From the NCBI RefSeq assembly GCF_004210375.1, contig NC_134834.1, positions 137,611,009 through 137,675,008 on the forward strand: 64,000 nt of DNA, written 5' to 3'. The notes under the pieces were generated by a model. It ran no database searches. It saw nothing but the letters and a program-made list of their open reading frames with translations, and was not told the DNA's origin. Made by a program: the position numbers and the translations under genes. Positions 16,685-33,000 of this stretch are shown here, piece after piece. Numbering within the stretch: position 1 is the stretch's first letter; each line of letters begins with the position of its first letter. Source of the DNA: Tachypleus tridentatus. Its lineage: Eukaryota > Arthropoda > Merostomata > Xiphosura > Limulidae.

Positions 16685-16968
16685 TTGTTTGTTTGTTTTT
16701 GAATTTCGTGCAAAGCCAGCTAGCTACATGAGGACTATCTGTGCTAGCCGTCCCTTATTTAGCAGTGTAAGGCTAGAGGGAAGGGAACTGGTCATCACTA
16801 CCTACCACCAACTCTTGGACTACTTTTACCAACGAATAGTGGGATTGACCGTCACATTATAACGCCCCCATGGCTGAAAGAGCAAGCATGTTTGGTGTGA
16901 CGGGGATTCGAACCCGTTACCCTCAGATTAGGATTCGAGCGCCTTAACCACCTGGCCATGTCAGGCCT
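16685..16968 (-). mobile_element. tRNA-derived SINE, full length
   Basis: Minus-strand copy with the tail GTTTGTTTGTTTTTGAATTT at the left and the tRNA-like head at the right (ATTCGAACCCGTTACC, then CCTGGCCATGTCAGGCC). Confidence 0.88.
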
Positions 16969-17370
16969 CATTGTTGCGTCTAGCATTTTTGAAGTGTATA
17001 TAATATGTGGCGTTGTACACATATTTCACGTTCCAAGTATATTTTTTATTATCAGTAATTTGCCAGGGAAAGAAAAAACATTAGTTTAAATAAAAATATA
17101 TTTTTTATATTTATCTGGAGAGTAAATGTCGTTTTTTCTTAACTTTTATCAAATTGAGAAAATCCCTCCAGAATTATTTAAATACTATTCTGTCTATTGT
17201 GGGTTCTCTTTAGCACGTATAAATATAATATATAACTCGCAAGTGAATGTAAAAACAAACCCTCGAAATTTAAACTGCATTTTCGGACATCCTTGACCAT
17301 GCATTTCAGAATTTGGTACATTATCACGTTGTAGAACCTCCTCTCACTCTAAATAAAAGTTGCTCCTTTC

Positions 17371-17700
17371 GACTACCAGGGCATAGTCACGTCTATTTTC
17401 TACTTTAGAGATATCGTAGTCGCTGTCAAATTGACTATCTAAAATGTATCAATGAGCAAGATGACTATCAATTTGTAGTCGTGGATATGAAATTGACTAT
17501 TAAGTAGTAACGATGATCTAATACTAGTCAGTTGACTCGTAGTCAATTTAAGCAATTAGTCGGTTTGACTACTTCCCAGTCAGAATGGCCATGTCCCAGT
17601 TTGTTTGACCACTTCCCAGTCACCCTGACTACTTCATAGCAGCACTGCTATGCTGGTCTTAAGGACTACTTTGTGGTCAGGAAGACCAACACCATAGTCA
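17371..17700. repeat. Left GACTA/TAGTC array, probable left end of the large transposon
   Basis: About 15 exact GACTA or TAGTC words lie in 330 bp, many extended to GACTAC or GTAGTC, with additional one-off variants (GACCAC, TGGTC). The words occur in both orientations. A segment GTAGTCGCT-8 bp-GACTATCTAAAATG (17416-17446) has an inverted counterpart, GTAGTCGCT-9 bp-GACTACCTAATATG, in the right array (26193-26224). Likely a set of transposase binding sites; this is inference. Confidence 0.75.
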
Positions 17701-19983
17701 GTATTAACTCATGAATTGACACTCTTGATGTTTCTTATAGCATTAAAGCGCAGTTCAGGCAAATGACTGTAGACATGCATTTTGTTCCATAAATACAACA
17801 ATTGAAACGTGACCAGGGCTAAACTTTGTAAGAATTTATTTATTTATTTATTTACTTTTATTTGGGGGAAATAAATTTCTCTCACACAAAATAAATCCTA
17901 CCTAAATAAATCTTATTTATCGACCACTTCTATTTCTTCACTGTTTTATTTGACAATTGTGTTTTTATATTGTGTGCGTGTGTTGGAATATTCGAATATG
18001 ACATCCAATAATCAATACATTTATTATTATAATCCACAACGACCTAAGTTATGACTGAAATAAGCTTTCCCCACGTGGCTAACACTCGCGCTGATACTAC
18101 ACGTCCGGGAAATGCATCCCATTCGTCTAGTGGTCCGCAGTGCAAGTCGAGTACAAATGGAAAGCAGCTACATTAGGTGCAAGCGCGACTATCTCTTTTC
18201 CAGAGGGATATACCAGGTCGAGTTTATCTGAAGGCGGGAGTTCTTTGAGCAAGGAGGTCTGCAGGTGGTATTTCTGGAGAGAGGTTGATCATTCCTCAAG
18301 GTGGTCGAGGGGATATTTAGGGGCTCACATATAATAATACATACACAGGGGGGAGTGAAGAGCACGGTCCACTCCTAAGCGGCAGCCGAAGGTAGGGGTG
18401 ACACTATAAACCCAAAGGGGGGGAAATCACACACAGCAATATTTTGTCGCACATTGAAGAATTACATATGACGTTTATAGAATTTATAATGACCGAAACT
18501 TGTACTGACATTGCAAAATTGCCATGCAACCGCGTAGATAACGGAAAGAAGAAATCCAGGTAAATATTAATCGTTTATGTCATATTTTCCAATACTATGT
18601 TTCAATAAAATAATATAAGAATACGAATGTTTAACTTTCTAGATTAGCTGAAGTGAATCCATCCGTATTTTTTTGTACAACTCGTTATGTGTGAACAAGG
18701 ATGGTTGCCCGTTATATTGTGTAGGTCTGTACTACTGTAGTCTAGTAGTAGTAGAGTAGGAATATTTATATTTAGGTTATGCTTTGAAGCAAGTATGAAA
18801 TCGAAAACATTCCCCAGTCTTGACATCACAAATGCACATATTTGGTATCTTGAATGCATATCCTGTGGTAGAATCAAAATCCCGCAATGATCCATGTTGC
18901 TTCTCTGTTAAATTTAGCGCCAACTACACCGCTGCTAAAAAGATTTGTTACGGCCACCGCTACACAGATGAAAGTTGTATACTCATTAAAGGAGACTTCG
19001 TCTGTTATCATTTTATAAACCTTTGATAATGAAAGATGACATACGATAATACGTAAATAATAAATCCTTATTTTTAATACATCAGCAGAGCTACAAATGC
19101 TAAAGCGTACACACTTTATGCAACGTGTGTATTATGGTGGGATCCACTGACACAGCCAACAATGGAGTTACAAATGGGGCGGCAAGACAAATCATTTGAA
19201 AACTGCGAAAAGTGAAACATATATTGTCTTTAATATGTGTTTCTTTAATTTAATATTACAAACTATCTAAAAATCTCTTTAGGTACAAAATGTATTTAAA
19301 CTTTTAAACTCTATACTTTGAAATCGAATGGTGCGAGATAGGAGCCAGCGCCAGGCCGTACACTATGAATAGAAGGCCTGTGATCCTGCAAAATATTTCC
19401 CCAACCCCTCTCCCTTCTTTGCTCCCAGAGAACTTTCTCAGACTTTGGGTTCCTCCCATAATCCATACCGGTGAGAGAAATGTAGGATCCGAGGAATATT
19501 GCATAGAGTCATGAGCAAACGAGTTGTGTAGTTAAAATAATAAAAAATTCTATACCCTTACGAAAATCGTGGGATACTAGGGGTCACGCATCAGCATGCG
19601 TATGCAGATATTTCCTTGTGTTTACTCTACAGTCCACAATTCCTTTCAGATTTCTGTCCAGTTTGGTGAATATGTTAGTTAGGTTGAGGTATGGCAATAA
19701 ATGTTTTGGCCACACCGCCGGGAAAGGATGGAGGGTTTGTGGCAAGAATTTGCATTTTGAAGTACGTTTTTATTCGCTAGATTGACGGCAAGTCCGCGGA
19801 TACACCGTCGGTTCGCGGGCGACCGACATGTGCTAGTTGTTATTATTGAAATTTATCATTAAATTTAGTTAAATAAATGATACATTTTACGTTCCAGAAT
19901 GAAAACCCGTGACATTTGGATGCATGTCTTGCATGATATTTATTAATAGACACTGTGAAGTTTGGTAAACTTTGGAGTTAAAC
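17701..19983. other. Left internal region of the large transposon, noncoding
   Basis: About 2.3 kb between the left array and the transposase gene. It includes a TTTA run (17833-17856), a less AT-rich stretch near 18100-18430, and a GC-richer block near 19720-19830 about 150-260 bp before the ATG, which could be promoter or 5' UTR. No protein is recognised. Confidence 0.4.
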
Positions 19984-22437
19984 ATGGCAGAACAGTCAGA
20001 AGTTTTCAATAATTTCCCTTGCATTAAATGTAATTATAAGGTTAGGCATTTTAACAAGCTTCTTTCACATTTTTCTTTGGTTCATTAGCATGAGCCTGGA
20101 GTTGTTGTCTCATGTGGGGTTAATGGATGTAAAAGACCATTCAAAAGCATCAGATGTTTAAAAAGACATATAAGTAAAATGTATGGATGGTTTACTACTA
20201 CCAGTATGCATGATAATGAAGCTGGTGGTGAATGTGCCGAATACTTTATGGAACAGAGGTATAAAAACTCTGACAGTGATGAGGCAGTTGATGGTAATAA
20301 GGAGATGGTTGTCACAGACAAGCGAAGAAACTTAGTTAAAACAATTCTGCAGCTGCGTAAAATGAAAAAAATATTACTTACAAAACTACAAGTAATTTTT
20401 TTAAATTTGTCCTGTTCTATTATGGCTGCCAAAGATGAACATTTATTCCAAACCATAAAAAGAACATTGATCAGTGAGGGAGTTCCTAGAAATAGTATAG
20501 TTACAGTGATGGAAGTTTGCAAGAAAGAAAGTCTTGACTTTCATTCCATGATTGAAAATTTCACTGACCACAATAATTTCCAGTCTTACGTTGAAGATAA
20601 TTTGTCATTTGTAAAACCTGTTGAGTATGACCTGGGAATTGCTGGTGATGTGAAACATTACACAATGCAGCATGTTTCTTTATTAGATACTCTGAAGTGT
20701 TTGCTTAAACATGATGATATTTTTAGCCAGGTTGTTTTTCCTCGCCAGGCAGCTGATGATTGTCTTAGAGATGTCGTTGATGGTGAACATTTGAAAAACC
20801 ATCCATTCTGGCAAGAAACTCCCCTTGCCCTTCAACTCATTCTCTATTTTGATGAGTTTACAACTGTGAACCAGGCTGGAATACGAGCTCCTGCTTACAA
20901 ATGTGCTGCTTTCTACTATCAGTTAGGCAATACTGAACCTGCTTTGAGATCTCAGCTTCATTGTATATTCTTAGCAATCTTGTTGAAGAGCCAAAATGTA
21001 AAAAAACATGGGCTAAATACAGTGATGAGACCTTTGATTGAAGAACTATCTGTTCTTGAAAACATTAGCATTGACATTGTCAAACCAGAGGAAACATTCA
21101 AATTTAGAGGTGCACCTCTTGTTGTTGTTGCAGGTAATTTGGGAAGCCATGCTATTGGAGGGTTTCTTGAATCATTTTCTGATCTCAGATCATGTAGATT
21201 CTACATGGTAACTCAGGATGATTTAAGAAGGTTGACTGATATTTCAAAATGTTCAGAGAGATCTATTGCATTCTATTGCAAGTTGCAATGATCGAAACTG
21301 AACCGACTTTGTCAAGTACATATGGGGTTAAAACAAGATCGCCCCTGAACGTTCTGCAGCAATTTTATGTGGCAAATGCTCTACCACCTGATATATTACA
21401 TGACCTTTTTGAATCTGGCTTGGTGTCAGAAATTTTAGTTTTACTCATAAATCAGTATGTCTTGTCTGGATACTTCAGCCTTCAGTACCTTGCAGACAGA
21501 GTGAAGGAGTTCCACTACAAAGGAACTGATAAAATCAATAGGCCTGAGCTTGTTATTTTGAGGGTTCTGTACACATTAAGCAAAAAGCTGTGCAAGTTTG
21601 GTGTCTCTTAAGTTTATTTCCATTACTGGTGGGTGATGCAGTGCCAGAAGGCAACAACAAATGGGAAGTTCTGTTGGCTCTGCTGGATATGGTAAAATTG
21701 ATAATGTGTCCATCAATGTCATATGCAAGCATTGAATTCTTAAATGATGTAATACAACATTTCCATTCTCTTTATAAAAGAAAATTTCCAAATAGAACTC
21801 TCAAGCCAAAAGGGACATTTTACTTTGCATTACCCAGAGATGACCCGCAGATCTGGTCCATTGAAAAATGTGTGGACCAAGAGATTTGAGGCCAAACATA
21901 GTTTTGTTGTTGATGTTGCAAGACGTACCAAAAACAGGAGGAATCTTGCCAAAATAATGGCAATGAGACACCAGTATAAACTCTGTTCATATTTGGAAAG
22001 CAATGGATTTCTTGGAATAGATGCCTTTGACCTGACTAATCCTGTCAAACTGCCTGTGAATTCACTCGGAGAAAAGCGAAACCTTGTCAGTGCATTTGTT
22101 GGGGAAGGCGATTTTGTCACTAAAGCATCAATCAGGTTGTACAGTCATCTGCCTCACATACAACACAGAGACAATGGTTGTCAGTAGCTATGAATTCGAT
22201 AGTCTTCAATTTTCTTCAGTGATCTGTTGCTTTGTTCTTTGGGGAAAACCTTTTTTGTATTGTTAAAGATACCAAACTGTTGATTATCACAGGCATCTTC
22301 ATGCTTACATTGTAGAGCCAATGAGAAGTTATGAACTCCTGAGCATTCCAGATCTTTATGATCATTACCCATTGCCTTGTTATGTGAACAAAGGTGAAAA
22401 TATGATCATCCTACATCACTACATTCGTGGCGACTAA
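19984..22437 (+). pseudogene. Transposase-like gene with C2H2 fingers, multiply frameshifted
   Basis: The ATG at 19984 opens a zinc-finger region: C13-x2-C16-x12-H29-x4-H34, then C44-x4-C49-x12-H62, with Met66 where a second His would be expected. An in-frame TAG (20086-20088) follows H34. The core resembles multi-copy uncharacterised animal proteins with a transposase-like fold. It contains LALQLILYFDEF (Asp290), YYQLGNTEPALRSQL, VVVAGNLGSHAIGGF, LPPDILHDLFE, QVWCLLSLFPLLVG, GPLKNVWTKRFEAKHSF, and a C-terminal HLHAYIVEP...DHYPLPCYV ending at TAA 22435. The frame changes near 21285 (1 to 3), 21555 (3 to 2), 21810 (2 to 3) and 22130 (3 to 1), and there is a stop at 22264. Unbroken it would be about 815 codons. 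The superfamily is not settled; the LGN...R word and D/D/E spacing suggest a KDZ/Plavaka-type enzyme. The copy is inactive unless several breaks are assembly errors. Confidence 0.8.
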
Positions 22438-22905
22438 ATGATGACAAATTTTAAACAAAACTCAGTAATCAGTAGTAAATGTTAACCTATTTTATGTAAC
22501 TTGGTGTGTACCTTCCAGTGACAAATTTCATCAAAAGATTTGACATATTTTATGTAAATTTGTTTCTGCCTTTTAGTGACAAATTTCAACAAAATTTTTA
22601 AACAGAGAGAACTTTTGTCATATTAATATGTATCGTGCATATTTGCACCAAAATTACCACTATCATCACCATGTATTGAGGTCAGACTACTTATATTTGC
22701 TTTCACCTTTTAAAGGCTACTATTTGTTAGGGATAAAACCAAATTACTTATTTAGCTGATTTATACCAGTCCTGCTGATGTTAAATGTATGGAAATGTAA
22801 TATATCTTTCAGGTGTTTTGTAGTTGTTCTTCAATGACAACTTTTCAGCATGTGTATACATATAAGTCATTTTTGATCAGTATCATACTTTTAGATTCCA
22901 GAGAA
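22438..22905. other. Spacer between the two transposon genes
   Basis: AT-rich and noncoding. The phrase TGACAAATTTCA(T/A)CAAAA is repeated about 58 bp apart (22519 and 22577), a weak local duplication. It may hold the 3' UTR of the transposase and the promoter of the second gene. Confidence 0.4.
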
Positions 22906-25613
22906 ATGGCTTTATTCTATCAAATTACCTACAATGAAAAAGAATTGCGGTGTCAGTGGATAATCTGGGATTGTTGCTTAGTAAGATTTCTGACAACCTA
23001 AATCTGGATGTAGATGCTACCAACTTGTCAGCTCAAGTGTACATGGAAAACTGGCAGGACTGGGTGGATGTTCAATGGTCTGACATTCCAAAACCACGAG
23101 CAAAGTTGCGTGTTTCTCTGGTTTTTAATGATGGGGTTACTGACGGAGAGATAGCTGTTGTGGTAAGTCGTTTGTAAAAAGGCGCAACCCATTTAAATTT
23201 GAGTGATTATAATCGTTTATGTAGTCATTGGAAATCACTCTGCAGAAACTTTATTCTGAAGAAAAGAACTAAAATTGTTCAATATACATTATTCAAAACA
23301 GCACAATTACTGTTATTTTTTATTACAAATTTAGACCCGTTAAAAATGTATTTTTGACCAGAATCCACCGAACCCTGAGGTGCCTTCAAGCAAGCAGAGT
23401 GCATCTTCACCCGGTCCCAGAACTGAACAAATTCAGTCCATATCATCATGGTAGGATATGTTCTAATGTATGTCAAATAGATCTTTCAATTTGTTAGAGA
23501 AATAGTTTTATCTTTCACTTGAGACAATTAGGCCTTAGTTAGTATTTCATTGCAATCAGTCAACCCCAATTTGTAAGTCTTTTGAATTATTTGATATTTT
23601 CTTTGGTCAGCATCTTAGCATTCAAGCCTTGGCCAGTACCCTTTAAGCTGGAAAATTTGTCAAGTCTGCCTAGATCTACTGCTTTGCTGTTGTCGCAAGG
23701 GAAGCCTGTTGATAAAGAAGGTCGCTTCCATTTACTGGATGCAGTCTACACTGAGGTTTCCAACTATACCTAGTAAGTGCGTGCAGTGAATACCATGTGT
23801 ACCATTTCTGCCCAACCTCTATTTTCCAGATATCCCACGTCAAGGCAGTATGACCAAGTAGTGGATGAAATATTTAAGCGCTACCCTCAGCTGTCAGACG
23901 CCCCAAATCTAACACCCCAAGGTGTTCGTGTAAGTACTATCCACATGTGCATTATGTTATGTTTGTTGTGAAATATATTTTTATCACAAATATATTCTTT
24001 TATCTATACATTTGGCTTTATGAGCCCAATAGCCAATAAGCCTAATAAAATTCGTCCTAAAGTGCATAGCAGGAATGTCCATATCACAACTTGTAAGGGT
24101 GTAAATGTATTCTGCAAGAAATATGTTCATTAGTTACAAAATAAATTAAATGGCATTTTTTATGTTGCATAATATTAGTGAAGAAACAAATGAAAATTTT
24201 GTAGGAAGTTATATTTTTTAAAATACACACAAGTACATATATCTACCAAGGAGGGGCTGTGGAAAATACTATTTTGATACTTTGAAATATTTGTTTTGTT
24301 TGTATACGATGTAACATGACTCAACTAATGAAACTCAACTAATTTGACGCTAAAGAGAATACATTGTCAAGATGAACTCGTACAACTGATTTATTAACCA
24401 GCATGTGTATGACTTTCAGTTTCTCAGATTAAACCTGAAAATGCCAAAAGTGGTTTAAAAGAAATAATGTTTGAAATAATTGTAGTTATACCAGGGCAGT
24501 TTTGTTATTCATTCTCAATATAAATAATTTTGTCAATTCTAATTGTAGGAGCTGTGGAGGATAAGGCTTCGTCAGAAATTCCAGTATGATAGACAGCGAA
24601 AGAATTCATCATTGCCTATAGTCCAAGAAAGAAAGAAAAAAAGACGAAAGCTGTAACAGATGAAACCACATCTCAGAACAAAGGCTATATGGATTAAAGC
24701 AATACTTGTGTGAAAAGCCAGTTGGGGAGGATGAAACTTCCACCGAGAAACACAAGAAATGGATGAAAACTTGTCTGCATTGTAGAAAAAGGGTGATCTT
24801 TGTAAAGTGGGCTTGCTTATGGACAAAACTCTGCATAATCGTAGGAAACTGGTCATTGACAACACTCCTGTCAATGAACTTACAGAGCATTATCCCTTCC
24901 TTGTGGCACCACCAGCACAGCTATTGAATGAATTTAAGCGGCGAGGAAATGATGCAGAAAAAGGAGTGTCCAACTTTCTCTCTCAATATAAGGACTCAGT
25001 AAATTCTCACCTACAGGACAGAAACATATCACCAGAAAATAATCCATTGCTAGCATTTCTTATGAAACAGTCCTCACACATGCCTGATGTTACATCTAGT
25101 ATTGTCATTCTTGGTATCCCTTTTCTTCTAAAAGAAAGTGAAAGTATCATGGTGGGTAATGAAGTTAGGGAACCTGGTGAGAGTGGTATATACATTCAAT
25201 GTGGTTCAATTTCTCAGTTTTGTGATCAGGAATTCAAAATATATGTTGATGGCTTTGATATTTGTGCAACTGAAAATTTTTGTAGAAGCATTCACTATGT
25301 ATATAGGGAGTTTTTATGTCTTCAACTTTGCATTTCCAACAAAACTAAAGAAAACTTTCAACTTTGTTAAAAGAGTTGTTCTGAAGCTCTATGATGAGTC
25401 CAGGATAATTACCAAATCTGATAAAGATGCAGACAGATGTGTTCTTCAGTTGCTTGATCTCTTGAATGTTAAAAACATAGCCGCGGGAAATTTGTCAAAA
25501 CGTCCAAAGGTAAAGAAAGAGGAAAGTGTTCAAAGCCATAAGGTTATATTAGATCTGGTAATAGTAACTTATGTGTATTTGATCCAGGGTGAATTTTCAA
25601 AAAACAAGTGAAA
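22906..25613 (+). pseudogene. SAMD3-like accessory gene of the large transposon, five exons, frameshifted
   Basis: A second gene in the same orientation. Exon 1 (22906-23162) has a small ubiquitin/PB1-like N-terminal domain (MALFYQITYNEKELR, then VSVDNLGLLLSKISDNL, and WQDWVDVQ), with a one-base shift near 22949. Canonical introns follow at 23163-23361, 23451-23610, 23773-23829 and 23930-24548 (donors GTAAGT or GTAGGA, acceptors AG). Exons 3-5 give KPWPVPFKL, YPTSRQYDQVVDEIFKRYP and ELWRIRLRQKFQYDRQRKN. Then come LCEKPVGEDETSTEKHKKW, RRKLVIDNTPVNELTEHYPF, LGIPFLLKESES and YVFNFAFPTKLKKTFNFV. From memory this order matches fish and invertebrate proteins named 'sterile alpha motif domain-containing protein 3-like', which are often repetitive. 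The exon 3/4 junction reads TA+A, a stop, and further frame breaks fall near 24655, 24790 and 25300. Probable non-catalytic partner of the transposase; role unknown. Confidence 0.75.
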
Positions 25614-25699
25614 GTTCAGTTGTTTATTTTCAAATTGTTGCTGCATTTTGAATTTTATTTTGGTACATGTATATTGATGTACACTTGTTTTCAGTTTGA

Positions 25700-25705
25700 A
25701 ATAAA
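25700..25705 (+). promoter_or_regulatory. Candidate polyadenylation signal of the SAMD3-like gene
   Basis: AATAAA about 90 bp after the last in-frame stop of the second transposon gene and about 90 bp before the right GACTA array. Position is plausible but unsupported by transcripts. Confidence 0.35.
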
Positions 25706-25793
25706 AATGGTGCTGCTAAAATGCATTTTATATTTTTCAGGATGGTGGCAGGTTACTGGGACTTAGGTTGAATCATCAGATGGCTGCGGGGTT

Positions 25794-26280
25794 GACTACT
25801 CAATGATGGTTCTGCTGATCACAACTGACTGAGGATGGTCTCTTTGCCTAACAGTGACATTGCTGAGGTGGTACTGACCGGGTCAACATGACTTATCTTC
25901 AATGGTTGTTGCATAGTCATAATAACTATAGTCCATTGTTAGTGGATGGTCATAATGACAACCGCTCCTTGTACGAATAGGGTCACACTAACTAGGTCAT
26001 GACTACTCTGTAGTGGTTTGCAGGTAGGCAATGCGACTATTGTCAGGTAGTCAGCATTGGTCAGAATGACTACCTAACGAAAGTCATAACGACTATCATA
26101 GAGCAGTCAAATTTATTACCTGCGAGGTATCCCTGCCATCACCTGACTATTTTCCTACTACACAATAGTAAAAATGACTAATATTTAATAGTCATATTAG
26201 GTAGTCATCGATTTTAGCGACTACTTGGAGAGTCTTTTTTGACACCGCTTGACTACCTGATTTACTATTCAAAAGTAGTC
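25794..26280. repeat. Right GACTA/TAGTC array, probable right end of the large transposon
   Basis: About 16 exact GACTA or TAGTC words lie in 490 bp, densest from 26001 to 26280, in both orientations. The outermost word, read inward on the minus strand, gives CGACTAC, as does the left end at 17370. Beyond 26290 the words stop. No convincing target duplication is visible. Confidence 0.75.
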
Positions 26281-26656
26281 GCCTTGGCTAGTTCTTATTT
26301 TGAGTGCTTATAGTTACGTAACTAGCGTAACTATTTCCAACATCCCAGTCTTCTGTTTATTTGTAAAAATACCATACTTCAGTTTTTAGAAATCTGTATG
26401 TTTCGCGAATCAAAAATTTAAATATTTCTGTGTTAGAAAGTTTAAAAAACTGTTAGGAAACAGTAATATTTTAATGTATGATTCTAAATTAATTTTACAC
26501 GAAAACTAAATATCCAAAAACGTTTTCCACAAAAACTTAAGAGTGGAACTACGCATTATAAAAATAACAATTAATAGACAGATTTCTACCAGTAACGTAC
26601 TGAGTGAAAAATTCCAAATCAATAGAACTAACTTTCATTTTGGGTGAATGCATGCA

Positions 26657-26790: not shown

Positions 26791-26856
26791 TTTTAATGAT
26801 GAGTTAAAATAAAAGAAAAACTTGAAAATAAAAGTTTTCTTTACAGATGAAATAAG

Positions 26857-27149
26857 TGATGTGATTTGAAGATCTTTTTAGTTGTTAAGACACACTAGTA
26901 ATGTGATTTGAAGATCTTTTTAGTTGTTAAGACACACTAGTAATGTGATTTGAAGATCTTTTTAGTTGTTAAGACACACTAGTAATGTGATTTGAAGATC
27001 TTTTTAGTTGTTAAGACACACTAGTAATGTGATTTGAAGATCTTTTTAGTTGTTAAGACACACTAGTAATGTGATTTGAAGATCTTTTTAGTTGTTAAGA
27101 CACACTAGTAATGTGATTTGAAGATCTTTTTAGTTGTTAAGACACACTA
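26857..27149. repeat. 42-bp tandem array, seven copies
   Basis: The unit TAATGTGATTTGAAGATCTT... ending GACACACTAG recurs with starts of GTGATTTG at 26861, 26903, 26945, 26987, 27029, 27071 and 27113. The copies appear identical apart from the outer edges. Each carries the palindrome AGATCT. Confidence 0.93.
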
Positions 27150-31665: not shown

Positions 31666-32310
31666 TATAACAATATCTATGTAGTGATTGGATCACAATG
31701 TCTGTAAATATAACAATATCTATGTAATGATTGGATCACAATGTCTGTTAATATAACAATATATATGTAATGATTGGATCACAATGTCTGTAAATACAAC
31801 AATATCTATGTAATGATTAGATCACAATGTCTGTAAATACAACAATATCTATGTAATAATTGGATCACAATGTCTGTAAATATAACAATATCTATGTAAT
31901 GATTGAATCACAATGTTTGTAAATATAACAATATCTATGTAATGATTGGATCACAATGTCTGTTAATATAACAATATCTATGTAGTGATTGGATCACAAT
32001 GTCTGTAAATATAACAATATCTATGTAATGATTAGATCACAATGTCTGTAAATACAACAATATCTATGTAATGATTGGATCATAATGTCTGTACATACAA
32101 CAATATCTATGTAATGATAGGATCACAATGTCTGTAAATACAACAATATCTATGTAATAATTGGATCACAATGTCTGTAAATATAACAATATCTATGTAA
32201 TGATTGAATCACAATGTTTGTAAATATAACAATATCTATGTAATGATTGGATCACAATGTCTGTTAATATAACAATATCTATGTAATGATAGGATCACAA
32301 TGTCTATAAA
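31666..32310. repeat. 43-bp minisatellite, 15 units, with higher-order structure
   Basis: Fifteen contiguous 43-bp units start TA(T/C)AACAATATCTATGTA. Units 5-7 (31838-31966) are repeated unchanged as units 12-14 (32139-32267), exactly seven units (301 bp) apart. The marker variants are ATAATTGG, ATTGAATC with TTTG, and CTGTTAA. Confidence 0.95.
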
Positions 32311-33000
32311 TATCATAGCAAAAAGTTAGATTATTTTGTTCCTCTTTCGTTTGCTTCTTTTATTATTAAATGAAAACTCAAAAACCAAAAGAGTGGTGTC
32401 AACCAATTTCATTAAGATGTCATAGTTTTAAGCAGTATTATTAACTAATAATGATTAAAAAGAATCATAATTCTAGTGTAAATGTTGTTATCATTACCCT
32501 TTGAAGCTAGCTTTCCTACAGAAATTTGGTGTTTCTTTAAAAAACAAACAAATTTAGGTACAGGGTAAAACAGGAATTGCCAACCAATTATATACAAACA
32601 ATAAATATTACAATTGGAACCTCATTGTATTTAGAATTTGGTTATAAATATAACTTCCTGTCTATTGAAAAACTTCATTAAAAAACAAGCAAACAGGCAA
32701 AGAAAATAGCTTCCAGAACAATAAATTAAGTGTACAGATGACTGATATTAATCCTTCAAACACAATATAAACAAGATAGTAGGAATGACATTGTATCATC
32801 TCTACATAATAGTAGAAGTAAGACTTAACATATAGAAATATATATATAACTATTCAATCATAATTGAGTTTAATTTATCCCATTTTTAATGTTAAAAACG
32901 ATCCTCATTATTTTGTTTGCATTGCTTTTGAAATATTAGTATCAGTCATCCCAATCCCTACTTCCTTTTTGAAAATCTTGTTTTTTTATATAATACATCC
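32311..33000. other. Noncoding spacer in the tandem-repeat region
   Basis: AT-rich, with no satellite words and no gene recognised. Confidence 0.45.

Follow-up and report, generated by a model that had tools for sequence, protein, structure and literature searches.

A stretch of 64 kb on contig C10 (hereafter the window), taken from a genome of 2.17 Gb in 205 contigs, carries two genes between two arrays of the word GACTA/TAGTC, which raises the question of whether genes and arrays together form one mobile element, as a preliminary description had proposed. Comparison with other copies in the same genome supports this core idea. We read the locus as a mobile element because its ends are shared, target duplications flank it, copies are many, gene 2 travels with gene 1, and gene 1 has a conserved core of D, D, C2C, H3H and E (Table 1). 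CACTA elements are cut-and-paste transposons, best known from maize, and the explanation that we favor, with a probability of roughly 85%, is a divergent EnSpm/CACTA-type (CMC clade) DNA transposon that left mostly broken copies from an old, star-like burst.

Table 1 Features of the transposon copy, in window positions; residue counts refer to the 20 long-read copies
Feature	Position	Strand	Remarks
Whole copy of the transposon, broken	17345..26306	+ (both genes +)	8,962 bp; edges common to other copies
Left target duplication CT	17343..17344		2 bp; from the repeat pattern across copies
Right target duplication CT	26307..26308		2 bp; from the repeat pattern across copies
Left terminal inverted repeat, CACTC...	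17345..17358	+	From comparison of ends and copies
Right terminal inverted repeat, ...GAGTG	26293..26306	-	From comparison of ends and copies
Left subterminal array	17371..17699		14 GACTA words, 7 per orientation
Right subterminal array	25794..26280		15 GACTA words, 9 and 6 by orientation
Gene 1, putative transposase, broken	19984..22434	+	ATG at 19984; stop at 20086, several frame changes
Two C2H2-like zinc fingers, head of gene 1	20020..20178	+	From sequence; Pfam matches weak, below cut-offs
Putative first catalytic Asp (D1)	20851..20853	+	D in 15/20 copies, 2 gaps, 3 others; aligned with the plant tnp2 Asp
Putative second catalytic Asp site (D2)	21133..21135	+	Gly in the window; copies D 14/20, N 2, S 1, gap 3
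Putative C2C zinc site	21193..21204	+	Second Cys is Tyr in the window; first Cys in 13/20 copies, second in 17/20
H(3)H motif and putative catalytic Glu (21888-21890)	21816..21890	+	H 15, H 13, E 14 of 20 copies
Gene 2, broken	22906..25608	+	Five exon pieces; paired with gene 1 genome-wide
Gene 2 introns (n=4)	23163-23361, 23451-23610, 23773-23829, 23930-24548	+	GT-AG ends, exons in one frame

Arrays and ends of the element

The arrays at both ends were described correctly. GACTA or TAGTC occurs 107 times in the whole window, with 14 words in 17371-17710 and 15 in 25790-26285, and with the remainder of the window as background the Poisson chance of such density is 4e-17 for the left array and 3e-16 for the right. 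Every 500-bp stretch of the window with at least six such words overlaps one array or the other. Both arrays are dense in the word in either orientation, with ~8 kb between them, and both lie just inside the ends of the element. The bounded unit is likewise real, with edges common to the copies, but the copies place those edges at 17345 and 26306, 26 bp farther out on each side, and the limits of 17371 and 26280 drawn in the preliminary description are rejected.

The termini consist of short, imperfect CACTC...GAGTG inverted repeats that are the same in most copies, a few having point changes. The sequence CACTCWAAATAA has two exact matches in the window, one per element end and facing inward, each outside its array at 26 bases from the outermost GACTA word. 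Placed in register, the two ends are identical at 11 of 12 and at 21 of 32 positions, a likeness equaled by 34 of 2,000,000 random pairs of places. The dinucleotide CT stands directly outward of both matches. Fifteen distinct insertions were compared, among them the one in the window, with L027 omitted as a duplicate of L026. Direct repeats flank 11 of them; eight are of 2 bp and three of 3 bp, and the remaining four insertions have none. When the right flanks were shuffled, a mean of 2.1 insertions showed a direct repeat and the maximum in 100,000 permutations was 9, versus the 11 observed.

CACT ends, duplications of 2 or 3 bp (11/15) and subterminal arrays at both ends are features of EnSpm elements, for which the available sections of one source give ends of CAC...GTG type and 2-3 bp duplications (PMC12730594). 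A similar combination of CACT ends, short imperfect inverted repeats and subterminal arrays is described for the plant EnSpm/CACTA elements maize Spm/En and soybean Tgmt* in passages of a second source, together with a short target duplication (3 bp in Tgmt*) and a large transposase accompanied by a second protein (PMC2613891). Unlike the plant elements, the present one has 2- plus 3-bp duplications, GACTA as its array word and a gene 2 unmatched in the libraries searched.

In 20/20 copies the left array belongs to the same end of the element. An inward CGACTAC had been reported at both ends. At the left end, 15 of 17 copies retain it (17371). At the right end it is private to the window copy, as are several words of that array, the outermost included: of 16 aligned copies, 0 retain the TAGTC at 26276. 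Over the aligned copies, GACTA words are kept in 69% of cells versus 65% for the other 5-mers of the arrays, which suggests that the copies decayed without clear constraint on these words after insertion. Three poorly aligned copies (L011, L019 and L022) were omitted from this comparison and from hhalign but counted in the residue tally. A search within the window for short relatives by their end pattern, allowing up to two mismatches, gave 34 matches versus 32 expected.

Outside the element, positions 16900-16975, just to its left, read by eye as tRNA-derived on the minus strand and may be a SINE; ARAGORN made no call. Tandem arrays occupy 26855-27149 (42 bp x 7.0, 99% matches), ~550 bp to the right of the element, and 31666-32313 (43 bp x 15.1, 93% matches).

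Copies across the genome

Genome searches with the left and right arrays scored 40 places among 128 candidates and 40 among 129, respectively, the window included in each. The other left-end places number 39, with 20 read over 10 kb and 19 over 150 bases. All 20 long-read copies align from 17342-17348 at the left edge, and 15 of them reach 26305-26314 at the right. Among the five that fall short, two (L015 and L024) break off no more than 90 bases from the end, one (L012) is truncated where the stretch read runs out, and L011 and L019 do not reach the edge. The 19 places read at 150 bases start at or near CACTC, a few of them with point changes or alignment slips. Matching the 40 left with the 40 right places yields 12 correctly oriented pairs, 5.6 to 14.2 kb apart, and no wrongly oriented pair. 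Pairwise divergence is roughly equal throughout the copies (median 8.7%, 18 rows), as after one burst followed by decay.

Copies L026 (C7 near 160.93 Mb) and L027 (C7 near 159.71 Mb) lie 1.2 Mb apart, have the same flanks and differ by 0.1%. Such duplicates, together with the clustering of gene 2 matches on contig C13 at 82.1-82.6 Mb, are what one would cite for a reading in which two host genes and flanking repeats, and no transposon, were spread by segmental duplication. Against it stand the sharp edges common to the copies, the target duplications, the spread over many contigs and the flanks, which are unlike between all copies except this pair, one insertion duplicated; we regard such an origin as extremely improbable. 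The common flanks and 0.1% difference of the pair lead us instead to see it as a recent segmental duplication that carried the transposon along.

Positions 275-3728 of L022 hold a 3.5-kb, internally deleted derivative that keeps both ends and hardly any of either gene, the form expected of a non-autonomous copy. Relatives elsewhere were not confirmed in IMG/VR or GTDB genomes, nor in a phage search with gene 1 or a plasmid search with gene 2, and a search of Rfam gave no match.

Gene 1 and its place among transposases

The two same-strand genes reported between the arrays, the first C2H2-headed and the second intron-containing, are present, and both are broken by stops and frame changes. The finger residues of gene 1 are mostly kept in the copies. 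At two positions the window departs from the pattern expected of the family, with Gly in place of Asp (21133) and Tyr in place of Cys (21202); the copies bear this out, with Asp in 14 of 20 and Cys in 17 of 20, the latter position being Tyr, Ser and a gap in one copy each. Longer frames survive outside the window, one of 439 aa in L016, which starts ahead of the second Asp and continues past the Glu, and one of 461 aa in L028, which extends from the fingers past the C2C. The D1-D2 spacing is 95 in L028 (94 in the window), and L016 gives 20 for D2-C, 253 for D2-E and 20 from the second His to the Glu. The residue numbers of RAG1 correspond to 108, 19, 254 and 20 (PMC4914335), so that gene 1 resembles RAG1/Transib in the order and spacing of its catalytic and zinc-binding residues; its ends differ from theirs, and sequence searches of the PDB returned only a weak zinc-finger resemblance and chance matches, with no match to RAG1. 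The mark common to EnSpm, Mirage, Chapaev, Transib and Plavaka, as stated in sections of PMC12730594, is a C(2)C plus an H(3-4)H lying after the second D and before the E, and gene 1 has D, D and E with this CMC/CMCT mark. Judged by its sequence, gene 1 is predicted to be a C2H2-headed transposase with a core of the CACTA/Transib/RAG1 type (D, D, C2C, H3H and E at RAG1-like spacings).

Its similarity to plant CACTA transposases is modest. The plant references were one tnp2 piece and one DUF4218 piece, a single manually entered sequence each, which Pfam identifies at 2e-66 and 2e-28. The D1-D2 block scores 60 against the tnp2 piece, where 2,000 shuffles give at most 48. Against the DUF4218 piece the H..E block scores 44 without gaps, where the maximum of 2,000 shuffles is 43; with whole-chain shuffles, the observed score was reached in 0 of 500 for tnp2 and 3 of 500 for DUF4218. 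Gene 2 scores at chance level against the same pieces. In hhalign with 13 rows, both Asp fall in register at a probability of 57%, and the E block alone reaches 3.5%. The blocks can thus be aligned with those of plant elements, from which gene 1 differs in its C2H2 head and in being missed by the Transposase_21 (PF02992) and DUF4218 (PF13960) models, which find no match in the element proteins up to E 10. None of the Pfam transposase models is significant, the best being Plavaka (PF18759) in copy L016 (E 0.15, 11.7 bits versus a cut-off of 26.3). Across the whole genome PF02992 also found no match, yet its controls were silent too, which makes that search uninformative. Because the similarity is modest and no Pfam transposase model is significant, we assign gene 1 to the CACTA type, inside the CMC clade, without choosing a branch.

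The element may alternatively belong to a CMC-clade lineage outside EnSpm proper, perhaps nearer Plavaka or another branch, its CACT ends being owed to convergence or to shared descent. Plavaka is the sole transposase model to appear, weakly and below significance, Transposase_21 is without a match, and excerpts of PMC12730594 assign CA...TG ends and 2-5 bp duplications to several CMC-related lineages. Plavaka/CMCT elements also have, like gene 1, a D, D and E whose last two members enclose C(2)C and H(3-4)H, but the ends listed there for Plavaka are TGT..ACA or CATCA..TGATG, unlike the CACTC..GAGTG found here (PMC12730594). CACT ends combined with subterminal arrays and 2-3 bp duplications form the EnSpm pattern, and the D1-D2 block aligns with plant tnp2; we consider a placement outside EnSpm possible but rather doubtful.

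For the EnSpm/CACTA-type reading, the animal relatives of CACTA elements, reported in 2006 (PMC1636069), offer a further comparison. SmTRC1, like the present element, has an animal host and a CXXC after the second Asp, and its duplications are of 2 bp in 7 of 14 copies; a CACTA relative in Aedes is of similar size, at 9.2 kb (PMC1636069). Within the sections of that description available to us, SmTRC1 and the animal relatives differ in beginning with CCC, in having a transposase with a recognizable Transposase_21 domain and in the lack of any such second gene (PMC1636069).

Gene 2, its linkage to gene 1 and a possible role

Gene 2 has a stop at its third junction and further breaks in its last exon. 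It finds no match in the PDB or in Pfam, and the labels SAMD3-like and PB1/ubiquitin-like, given in the preliminary description, are provisional. Its linkage to gene 1 was assessed over 86 loci of gene 1 and 119 of gene 2, clustered in both cases. These came from 94 of 113 gene 1 rows and 121 of 158 gene 2 matches, the other listed rows being, by eye, pieces of loci already entered; the best 92 of 429 candidates for gene 1 and 150 of 304 for gene 2 were scored. Among the scored matches, 75 of the 86 gene 1 loci are followed on their own strand by gene 2, no more than 8 kb downstream, with a median gap of 3.6 kb, no other arrangement and a chance expectation of 0.02. Against this, 11 loci of gene 1 and 44 of gene 2 among the scored matches are unpaired. 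Some of these do contain the partner, unscored or partly deleted: two copies listed as unpaired, L014 and L018, hold 69% and 77% of gene 1.

Within its own genome, the claim that both genes belong to one mobile element therefore stands, on the pairing in the same orientation and on copies with common edges. The preliminary description had named copies with a single gene, arrays occurring independently of the genes and unshared edges as findings that would speak against it, and this is not what the genome presents.

Travelling together could still leave gene 2 without a role in transposition, as a passenger picked up by one transposon family and amplified along with it. All matches come from one family of copies in one genome, and gene 2 has introns and no recognized domain, both of which suit a passenger. 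At least 65% of both genes is present in 16 of the 20 long-read copies, which together with the 75 of 86 loci speaks against a passenger, although copies of one burst would show the same anyway. Both proteins may be common in animals, which would also weigh against it. On balance we find the passenger reading plausible but somewhat improbable.

Under the favored reading of a CACTA-type transposon, the gene 1 protein would have excised the element at its CACTC ends and inserted it elsewhere, with duplications of 2-3 bp as the result. Either gene 2 or the zinc-finger head of gene 1, or the two together, may have bound the GACTA arrays and brought the ends together, like TNPA in maize Spm. In that system TNPA binds the subterminal repeats and both TNPA and TNPD are required, according to passages of two sources (PMC2613891, PMC1636069), and subterminal-binding proteins vary between CACTA elements in the first of them (PMC2613891). 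Given this variation, the role of array binder would suit gene 2 even if it is unrelated to TNPA. By this analogy, we give gene 2 itself slightly less than an even chance of being that binder.

The way in which these ends, these arrays and the two genes are combined, together with a transposase missed by Pfam, seems new. Literature on SAMD3, SAMD3-like proteins, EnSpm with sterile alpha motif, and transposons yielded no account of the gene pairing; Repbase, outside that coverage, may hold one. The element adds an animal CACTA-type lineage whose transposase is missed by standard models. If the pairing holds beyond its own genome, two groups of uncharacterized animal proteins now listed separately would together make up one mobile element, which would allow many annotations to be corrected. 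A wider conjecture, which we consider unlikely, is that the C2H2-headed and SAMD3-like proteins of many animals are both encoded by a single, widespread lineage of CACTA-type transposons, that the SAMD3-like protein is a TNPA-like array binder and that vertebrate SAMD3 was domesticated from such a second gene. Two questions become testable with this element. One is whether CACTA-type elements of animals rely on a second protein at their subterminal arrays, like maize Spm; the other is whether the host gene SAMD3 derives from such a protein.

The gene 2 matches on C13 lie at 82.14-82.58 Mb, and seven of them were entered in the linkage count. Several agree in score and stops, as would copies of a segment that underwent repeated duplication.
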